From the NCBI GenBank assembly GCA_026399095.1, contig JAPLRP010000077.1:1-64000 (forward strand): DNA of 64,000 nt, in the 5' to 3' direction. Made by a program: the position numbers and the translations under genes. The DNA comes from Methylococcales bacterium (GTDB lineage Bacteria; Pseudomonadota; Gammaproteobacteria; Methylococcales; Methylomonadaceae). The notes beneath the pieces are model-generated. The model did not search any database. It saw nothing but the letters and a program-made list of their open reading frames with translations, and was not told the origin of the DNA. The stretch's first letter is position 1, and every line of letters starts with the position of its first letter. This document shows, piece after piece, positions 30,409-42,975 of this stretch.

Positions 30409-33400
30409 ATGACAGCAATCATTGAACTCTTCGGACTTAAAGGCTTTATTCCTCATGGCTATTGCTTATTATGGAGTCCGGCATTGCTTTGGTTACATGC
30501 TGCCTCCGATTTTCTTATTTTTCTGGCCTACTTTTCTATTCCTGCAGCGCTTATCTATTTTATTAAGCAACGCAAAGAAATACCCTATCCACGACTCCTT
30601 TTTATGTTTGCCGGCTTTATTATTGCCTGTGGGATCGGGCATTTATTATCCGCACTGACGATTTGGATACCGCTGTATTGGTTGGAGGGTTGGGTTAAAG
30701 GCTTTACCGCTGTTATTTCTATCACCACCGCAACCATGATGTTCTGGGTTATTCCAAAAGCATTGGCCTTGCCAACCCTCAAGCAACTTCAAGAGGAGAT
30801 ACAGCAAAGGCAACTCATAGAAAATCAACTGAGACTCTTTGAAAATTTGTTTGAAATGACCTCTGATTGCATGTTTATGATTAGTCCTAAACAAGATTTT
30901 AGATTTGTATTCGTTAATGCGGCCACTTGTCGGCATTTTGGTCAAGAGCGCGAGCAATTATTACAATCATGCATTTCGGATTGGGATCCTAATTTCAAGA
31001 CGCAAAATGATCTGGATGCGATATGGCTAACAATTAAAGCCAAAAAAGGCATTATTATTGAGACCTGCCATCGTTTGAGTTCCGAGATAGAAATACCTGT
31101 TCAGGTTTCTGCCAACTATCTATCCTACCAAGACGAAGAGTATATAGTTGGTTTTTTCCATAACATCACCGAACGTAGATTGGCAGAAAAAAATCTACGA
31201 GCCAGCGCTCATTATATTCATAGTTTACTTGCGGCCAGTTTAGACCCTGTCATCACCCTCACGATGACTGGCAAAATAGTGTCTGTTAATAAAGCGATGG
31301 AATCTATTACCGGTAAAACCACTGATCAGCTGATCGGTAGCGATTTTTCCACTTATTTTATCAAACCGGAAAATATACAGTCCTGTTACCCAGACGTACT
31401 CGAAAAAGGCTTTATTGGTGACTATAATTTACAACTTCAGCAAGCTTCAGGAAAGACCTGTTTGGATGTCCTTTTAAATATCAGTTTATATTATAACGAA
31501 CAGATAAATGCTTCTGAAATGCTGGTGATGATGCGCGACATTACTGCGCAGAAACAAGCGCATGAAAAACTGCAACTAGCCGCCAGTGTGTTTAGTCATG
31601 CCCAAGAAGGCATTATGATCACGCAAAAAGATGGTGAAATTATCGACGTTAATGATGCTTTTACTGAAATAACTGGCTATAGCCGAGAAGAACTCTTGGG
31701 CAAAAACCCGCGCGTACTGAGTTCCGGTCGTATGGCAATGGAAGCCTACACGGCTATGTGGCGGGATTTAAAGACCAAGGGCCATTGGTACGGTGAAATT
31801 TGGAACCGACGTAAAAACGGTGAGGTCTATGCCGCCATGGAAAATATCACGGCCGTCGTCAATAGCCAGGACAACTCCACGCAATATGTAGCACTCATAT
31901 CGGATATTACCAAGATCAAAGAACATCAGTTTGAACTGGAACATATGGCTCACTTTGATCCTTTAACCAATTTACCTAACCGCGTATTGTTGGCTGATCG
32001 AATACAACAAGCGATTGCGCATTCTCGTCGCTCGGCGGAAATTATTGCCTTGGTATTTCTTGATCTTGACGGCTTTAAAGTGATTAATGATACCTATGGG
32101 CATTTAGTGGGCGATCAATTACTCATTGGTGTGGCGAATGCTATGCAGCAAACTCTACGTGAGGTGGATACCCTCGCCCGTTTGGGCGGTGATGAATTTG
32201 TTGTCGTACTGATCAATGTCGGTGATATTGAAACCAGAGAGCCTTTATTTACCCGTTTATTAAATGCTGCCGCCTTACCGGTGATCTTTGATACGATTGT
32301 TTTGCAAGTATCTGCCAGTATGGGGGTCACCTACTATCCGCAAGTAGACGATGTGGATGCTGACCTTCTCATACGTCAAGCTGACCAAGCCATGTATCAA
32401 GCCAAGATGAGTGGAAAAAATCGTTATCATATCTTTGATACGGATTTGGACAAGCTGACACGCAGTCATAATGAAAGCCTGGAGAGTATAAGCTGTGCCT
32501 TGGCTGCCAATGAATTTGAGCTTTATTATCAGCCTAAAGTTAACCTGCGCTTGGGTAATGTTGTCGGGGTAGAAGCCTTGATTCGCTGGCAGCATCCCAC
32601 TAAAGGTCTTCTCGCACCTGCAGAGTTTTTGCCTTTTGTCGAGAATCACGCACTTTCTGTTGATATTGGTGAATGGGTCATCAATACCGCCATGAACCAA
32701 CTAGAAAGCTGGCATAAAGTCGGCTTACATCTACCAATCAGCGTCAATATTAGTGCCAAGCAACTTCAACAAGACGGTTTTCTTGACTGTTTACGTCAAT
32801 TACTAAAAATCCATCCCACGGTTAAGCCGGGGGATATGGCACTGGAAATTCTGGAAACCAGCGCTATGAGAGAGTTAAGCAAGATATCTCAATTAATAAC
32901 CGATAGTCGAGATATGGGTATATTATTTTCTCTGGATGATTTTGGCACCGGTTACTCCTCGCTGACTTATTTGAAACGTTTACCCATCAGTCAACTTAAG
33001 ATAGATCAGAGTTTCGTCCGTGATATGCTGAGTGATGTCGATGATCTGGTTATAGTGGAAGGGGTGTTGGCTTTAGCCAATGCCTTTAGCCTTGAAGTGG
33101 TGGCTGAAGGCATGGAAACGACTGATCATGGTGAAATGCTGCTCCAACTCGGCTGCGATTTGGCACAAGGCTATGCCATTGCTCGTCCCATGCCGGCGGC
33201 TGCTTTGGAGAAATGGCTCACTACCTGGCAACCTGACCCGAGCTGGGTGGATCGACCTTCTTTTACACGAGCCAATTTACCGTTATTATTCGCCAATGCA
33301 GAATATAAAACCTGGCTAAATGGTGTAGAAAATTATTTAGCGAACAAAGGTCCCAAGCCCGAGAACTCAAACTCTCGCTTTGGTTTATGGTTAGCTAACA

Positions 33401-33603
33401 ATAGCACTCTTAAAAAGGGTAATTATGAGACTATCTTAACCCTGCACCAAGCACTCTATGCCTATGCTGAACAGTTAATAGCGCTCCATGATGCAGGTCA
33501 AACCCAACCGGCACTGGCAGGCTTACCTGAACTTCATGAACGGCAAGAGGCTTTGCTTGTAAAGCTGAAAATACTGGTACTGGAAACCGTGCAGTCGGTT
33601 TAA
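30409..33603 (+). CDS. Ethylene-receptor-like sensor with PAS, GGDEF and EAL domains
   Basis: A 1064-residue inner-membrane c-di-GMP enzyme. Residues about 30-118 form three membrane helices that closely resemble the ethylene-binding domain of plant ETR1: SDFLIFLAYFSIP, LIYF and ACGIGHLL. Asp34, Tyr41, Ile44, Pro45, Ile71, Cys74 and His78 reproduce the ETR1 set D25/Y32/I35/P36/I62/C65/H69 at the same spacing; Cys and His bind Cu(I) there. Three PAS domains follow (about 140-255, 265-380, 388-505). The GGDEF domain has an intact RLGGDEF (591-597) and the EAL domain an intact EAL (722-724) with DDFGTGYSSL. The last 100 residues are helical and CZB-like (FGLWLAN, LHQALYAYAEQL) but lack most expected zinc ligands. 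Synthesis, breakdown or both of c-di-GMP are possible. Confidence 0.92.
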   Translation: MTAIIELFGLKGFIPHGYCLLWSPALLWLHAASDFLIFLAYFSIPAALIYFIKQRKEIPYPRLLFMFAGFIIACGIGHLLSALTIWIPLYWLEGWVKGFTAVISITTATMMFWVIPKALALPTLKQLQEEIQQRQLIENQLRLFENLFEMTSDCMFMISPKQDFRFVFVNAATCRHFGQEREQLLQSCISDWDPNFKTQNDLDAIWLTIKAKKGIIIETCHRLSSEIEIPVQVSANYLSYQDEEYIVGFFHNITERRLAEKNLRASAHYIHSLLAASLDPVITLTMTGKIVSVNKAMESITGKTTDQLIGSDFSTYFIKPENIQSCYPDVLEKGFIGDYNLQLQQASGKTCLDVLLNISLYYNEQINASEMLVMMRDITAQKQAHEKLQLAASVFSHAQEGIMITQKDGEIIDVNDAFTEITGYSREELLGKNPRVLSSGRMAMEAYTAMWRDLKTKGHWYGEIWNRRKNGEVYAAMENITAVVNSQDNSTQYVALISDITKIKEHQFELEHMAHFDPLTNLPNRVLLADRIQQAIAHSRRSAEIIALVFLDLDGFKVINDTYGHLVGDQLLIGVANAMQQTLREVDTLARLGGDEFVVVLINVGDIETREPLFTRLLNAAALPVIFDTIVLQVSASMGVTYYPQVDDVDADLLIRQADQAMYQAKMSGKNRYHIFDTDLDKLTRSHNESLESISCALAANEFELYYQPKVNLRLGNVVGVEALIRWQHPTKGLLAPAEFLPFVENHALSVDIGEWVINTAMNQLESWHKVGLHLPISVNISAKQLQQDGFLDCLRQLLKIHPTVKPGDMALEILETSAMRELSKISQLITDSRDMGILFSLDDFGTGYSSLTYLKRLPISQLKIDQSFVRDMLSDVDDLVIVEGVLALANAFSLEVVAEGMETTDHGEMLLQLGCDLAQGYAIARPMPAAALEKWLTTWQPDPSWVDRPSFTRANLPLLFANAEYKTWLNGVENYLANKGPKPENSNSRFGLWLANNSTLKKGNYETILTLHQALYAYAEQLIALHDAGQTQPALAGLPELHERQEALLVKLKILVLETVQSV

Positions 33604-40747: not shown

Positions 40748-40966
40748 AGACCATCCTAACTAAATATTTTTTATTTATAGCGTATTATCAAGGTAAAAAT
40801 GAGTTTATCATTTTTTTTGTACCAATAATCAATCACTCTTGACCCTATATGATATAAAAAATGCCTCAAATGTCCTAAAATTATCTTCCGAAATAGGTAC
40901 TAATTATACTGGCTCTACTTGCAATCCATGTGATTATCCTTTAACTTAGTCCAACATCCGTAAAGG
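40748..40966 (+). promoter_or_regulatory. Upstream region of the thiC riboswitch
   Basis: This 219-nt AT-rich spacer separates the divergent glycosyltransferase and thiC units. TATACT at 40905-40910 is a plausible -10 box about 57 nt before the riboswitch core, with TTATCT at 40881-40886 as a weak -35 at 18-nt spacing. No gene is seen. Confidence 0.3.

Positions 40967-42975
<2,009 letters not shown>

Follow-up and report, generated by a model that had tools for sequence, protein, structure and literature searches.

A putative ethylene-sensing ETR1_N domain joined to PAS-GGDEF-EAL in a methanotroph of the Methylococcales

The window analysed here (64,000 nucleotides of a Methylococcales bacterium, assembly GCA_026399095.1, contig JAPLRP010000077.1, positions 1 to 64,000) encodes a 1064 aa protein in which a membrane domain of the ethylene receptor type is followed by three PAS domains and a GGDEF-EAL pair. 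We consider it probable, at roughly 0.6, that this protein is an inner-membrane, one-component sensor of ethylene that depends on Cu(I) and controls c-di-GMP. The output joined to its ETR1_N domain is GGDEF-EAL and not of the histidine kinase type found in the receptors so far characterised, ETR1, SynEtr1 and AzoEtr1; the protein thus has a receptor-type input, yet falls outside the canonical ethylene receptor kinases. The open-access literature yielded nothing on ETR1_N joined to GGDEF-EAL and nothing on ethylene receptors in methanotrophs; an earlier description of such a fusion may exist elsewhere.

The protein and its N-terminal domain

The features of the gene, with residue numbers of the protein, are as follows.

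30409..33603, + strand: ETR1_N-PAS-PAS-PAS-GGDEF-EAL protein, 1064 aa (ORF, Pfam, orthologues)
30478..30765, + strand: three predicted transmembrane helices, residues 24-54, 61-84 and 90-119 (AlphaFold2)
30484..30771, + strand: ETR1_N ethylene-binding membrane domain, residues 26-121 (Pfam E=2.2e-35, whole-genome match)
30628..30642, + strand: Cys74 to His78, predicted Cu(I) ligands, equivalent to ETR1 C65 and H69 (alignment)
30859..31179, + strand: PAS 1, residues ~151-257 (Pfam)
31225..31557, + strand: PAS 2, residues ~273-383, approximate boundary
31606..31914, + strand: PAS 3, residues 400-502 (Pfam)
31948..32424, + strand: GGDEF domain, residues 514-672 (Pfam), with the GGDEF motif (593-597) and RxxD (584-587) intact
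32485..33189, + strand: EAL domain, residues 693-927 (Pfam; motifs read from the sequence)
33313..33477, + strand: degenerate CZB-like C-terminal domain, residues 969-1023 (below the Pfam cut-off)

The frame opens with ATG and is intact, and three orthologues of full length (88, 72 and 70% identity) share both its start and its entire extent. An earlier note, made from the sequence alone, had placed a three-helix, ETR1-like membrane domain at the N-terminus and had put forward a profile search as the test of that claim. The search returned Pfam ETR1_N (PF25487, ethylene receptor 1-like N-terminal domain) at E=2.2e-35 and 121.2 bits against a cut-off of 27, and the interval originally given (30409-30780) spans this domain together with its N-terminal lead. 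The alignment with ETR1 that had also been proposed covers 113 residues at 37% identity (E=5e-19) and places D34, Y41, I44, P45, I71, C74 and H78 opposite ETR1 D25, Y32, I35, P36, I62, C65 and H69, exactly as the note had said; Lys97, moreover, falls opposite ETR1 K91. The numbering of the AtETR1 sequence used is self-consistent and in agreement with published residues. Pairwise comparison with the AzoEtr1 domain gives 43% identity over 138 residues (E=4e-41). The note’s label “plant-type” is misleading, since ETR1_N is a common bacterial module and the window domain is closer to bacterial homologues such as AzoEtr1 than to ETR1.

An AlphaFold2 model built on 93 aligned sequences (mean pLDDT 87) has long helices at residues 24-54, 61-84 and 90-119, and then at 124-145, with pLDDT mostly above 90, so that the N-terminal part of the predicted model has the three transmembrane helices of the ETR1_N family. 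The first loop, KQRKEIPYPR, is positively charged, which suggests an N-terminus outside and a cytoplasmic catalytic part. In the same 93 sequences H78 is invariant and C74 is at least 90% conserved. A PDB sequence search with the domain gave no match and Foldseek against the PDB gave no significant match, nor did a solved ETR1_N membrane domain turn up. Directly before helix 1 lies a PHGxCxxW motif (residues 15-22, window 30451-30474), in which His16, Cys19 and Trp22 reach 90% conservation or more in the alignment of bacterial ETR1_N proteins; it could be an extra metal or redox site beyond the seven known residues.

The catalytic half has the PAS-PAS-PAS-GGDEF-EAL order that had been read from the sequence, now assigned by Pfam. 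The RxxD at 584-587 is the inhibitory site of the GGDEF domain, and the EAL-domain motifs are intact: EALIR (EAL 722-724), N780, E816, DDFGTG 843-848, K864, E900 and Q920. With both sets of motifs present, cyclase and phosphodiesterase activity are each possible. In the orthologues L145 and L146 (the loci compared are given by our own handles) the DDFGTG of the window protein is replaced by DNFGNG, which suggests loss of phosphodiesterase activity in these two, and EAL activity may not be conserved across the orthologues. NCBIfam equivalogs, DibA among them, matched below cut-off in every case and point to general c-di-GMP similarity only. The stretch after the EAL domain resembles CZB at E=0.008 and 17.0 bits, short of the cut-off of 29.4, and by eye has one (H1013) of the four zinc ligands (His, Cys, His, His) left; a degenerate CZB-like domain without zinc ligands follows the EAL domain in the orthologues as well.

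The host and related receptors

The host genome (2.77 Mb, 98% complete) carries a three-gene pmoCAB-type operon, recognised by an AMO family match and inspection, together with a methanol dehydrogenase-type PQQ alcohol dehydrogenase. The host is therefore a methanotroph, a circumstance that the earlier note had raised only as a condition. Two Cu P-type ATPase matches over the cut-off could handle Cu(I). The genome also encodes a second ETR1_N protein (L034:4133-6904, G000:C89), a hybrid histidine kinase with the layout ETR1_N-PAS-PAS-HisKA-HATPase-REC-Hpt. The neighbours of the window gene are housekeeping, cofactor and cell-envelope genes; inspection by eye recognised no copper or alkene genes and no informative neighbours among them. 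Rfam matched nothing at the gene, and its only match in the window is an ordinary TPP riboswitch (40959-41075) upstream of a thiC-like gene (41089-42975).

The nearest experimental anchor is AzoEtr1 from Azospirillum brasilense Sp7, a bacterial protein whose domain is proven to bind ethylene, and with high affinity (PMC11819568). We take a 525 aa ORF of strain Sp7 (L229:2980-4557) to be AzoEtr1 because its length, its ETR1_N-PAS-HisKA-HATPase layout and its overlap with a response-regulator ORF are as published. Like the window protein, AzoEtr1 has all seven ligand residues and a PAS domain adjoining ETR1_N; unlike it, AzoEtr1 has a histidine kinase output with an adjacent response regulator, and its host is a plant-associated alphaproteobacterium. 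Ethylene reduces c-di-GMP in A. brasilense (PMC11819568). SynEtr1/UirS (Slr1212) of Synechocystis, likened here by description only, is a bacterial multi-domain sensor that also begins with an ethylene-binding domain and affects motility and biofilm (PMC5812497, PMC7700396), and differs in having a GAF photosensor and a histidine kinase output. Plant ETR1 shares the three-helix ethylene-binding domain, the same seven residues and Lys91, and differs in its endomembrane location and its histidine kinase-receiver architecture acting via CTR1. Bacterial ethylene-binding domains with varied outputs have been noted in a review (PMC7700396).

The catalytic half has relatives of its own. Loci L147, L148 and L152, from Methylococcaceae and betaproteobacteria, are ~50-67% identical over this half and carry other N-terminal sensors. 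Among the 80 loci nearest to the whole protein, ETR1_N occurs only in L144-L146, the others having different N-termini on the same PAS-GGDEF-EAL chassis, which also occurs without membrane segments. Since other sensors are the rule on this chassis, ETR1_N has the look of a plug-in module, added to it in the lineage of the window protein.

Conservation and distribution of ETR1_N

ETR1_N proteins were collected from Methylococcales and other genomes, and 106 distinct bacterial domains were aligned. Mean entropy is 0.38 at the seven ligand sites versus 1.72 at the 89 other sites (Mann-Whitney p=6e-5), and 0.53 versus 1.89 in a 70% non-redundant set. C65 and H69 are both retained in 103 of the 106 domains and all seven residues in 79, departures at D25 and P36 being commoner among GGDEF-EAL proteins than among kinases. 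Wherever D25 is replaced by a non-acidic residue, the K91 base is lost too (six of six domains; Fisher p=3e-7, a value that ignores relatedness, five of the six sitting in one tree region). This joint loss agrees with the published Asp-Lys salt bridge of ETR1, in which an Asp-to-Asn change lowers affinity ~100-fold (PMC13012798). The domains concerned (L111, L114, L116, L118, L060 and L143) form a natural set for testing a low-affinity or changed ligand; in one of them, L116, ETR1_N is joined to at least 11 PAS domains in a single open frame of ~2000 aa.

Compared with its nearest orthologue, L144, the window gene is most constrained in ETR1_N, which is 95.9% identical and has a dN/dS of 0.11 versus 0.26 for the whole gene. 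The pattern is not uniform: against L146, which is without the proline matching ETR1 P36, the dN/dS of ETR1_N is 0.31 and lies above the gene average.

By a simple motif test, the 106 domains are joined to 40 GGDEF or GGDEF-EAL outputs and 36 histidine kinases, with 30 left unclassified; some of these last are truncated loci, and L100, the only one put through Pfam, proved to be a kinase. In a poorly resolved domain tree, which requires ~12 output changes, the window ETR1_N groups with mostly kinase-linked ETR1_N domains. The type of output thus probably changed several times, although a single origin is still formally conceivable.

Of 151 Methylococcales genomes, 73 have an ETR1_N match over the cut-off, against ~9 of 365 in an even sample of the rest of the class (odds ratio 37, p=8e-36, ignoring relatedness); in a sample of the phylum the figure is 28 of 398. 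Since pMMO/AMO was found in 122 of the 151 genomes of the order and several pMMO-bearing families of that order are without ETR1_N, strict tracking of pMMO by ETR1_N is rejected; the enrichment belongs to two families and not to the enzyme, and the link between ETR1_N and methane oxidation is not an obligate one. Elsewhere the domain occurs in, among other named bearers, Azospirillum, cyanobacteria, Novosphingobium, Rhizobium and Deinococcus plasmids. The phages yielded no ETR1_N homologue.

What the domain may sense

In the scheme that we infer, which takes in Cu(I) and ethylene binding, the dimer, signal transfer, the sign of the c-di-GMP response and the physiological role, the three-helix ETR1_N of a dimer would hold Cu(I) via Cys74 and His78 and bind ethylene. 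The signal would pass from helix 3 through the helix at 124-145 and the three PAS domains, which may carry other signals as well, to the GGDEF-EAL pair, and the resulting change in c-di-GMP would alter adhesion, motility or exopolysaccharide. That ethylene lowers c-di-GMP is our guess. The sensor would thereby report ethylene, and a reason to sense it would lie in its unavoidable co-oxidation by pMMO to toxic epoxyethane. At low ppm ethylene inhibits soil methane oxidation, and its toxicity to methanotrophs arises through pMMO (PMC11507031), a paper in which no receptor is mentioned.

The serious rival, if an unlikely one, is that ETR1_N holds a true copper site and that the signal is copper status or another small pi-ligand such as propylene, acetylene or CO. 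Copper has a central place in the physiology of pMMO, and the domain is enriched in copper-dependent methanotrophs, but it is also found in bacteria not known as methane oxidisers. In favour of this rival, the best-kept residues of the family are C65 and H69, which persist in some copies, especially GGDEF-EAL ones, that have lost D25 or P36; the window copy, however, keeps all seven residues together with the Asp-Lys pair associated with high affinity for ethylene, and a bacterial domain 43% identical to it binds ethylene (PMC11819568).

We regard it as quite improbable that ETR1_N serves only to anchor the protein in the membrane and to dimerise it, with the PAS domains as the true inputs. 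The chassis occurs with many other N-termini and also without membrane segments, and so can do without ETR1_N, but conservation is much stronger at the ligand residues than in the remainder of the membrane domain, ETR1_N is more constrained than any other part of the protein relative to the nearest orthologue, and Cys, His, Asp and Lys are kept inside helices, which would not be expected of an anchor. A chance likeness in an unrelated hydrophobic three-helix domain is ruled out for practical purposes by the profile score and by the pairwise matches to ETR1 and AzoEtr1 cited above.

Ethylene sensing with a c-di-GMP output remains our preferred reading. A wider proposal, which we advance tentatively and at somewhat less than even odds, is that copper-loaded ethylene receptors, many of them wired to c-di-GMP enzymes, serve the methane-oxidising Methylococcales as a group: with them the cells would detect ethylene or another alkene that their own methane monooxygenase makes into a toxic epoxide, and would so switch between attached and free life. 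If this is true, it would be the first case of a one-component receptor leading from ethylene to c-di-GMP, and c-di-GMP would give ethylene-receptor biochemistry a simple chemical read-out. The Methylococcales bearers help to limit the release of methane; their sensor domain, which occurs in roughly half of the sampled genomes of the order and has many copies on c-di-GMP enzymes, is a direct molecular candidate for an ethylene response in them and, if the reading is true, would help explain the effect of soil ethylene on the methane sink.
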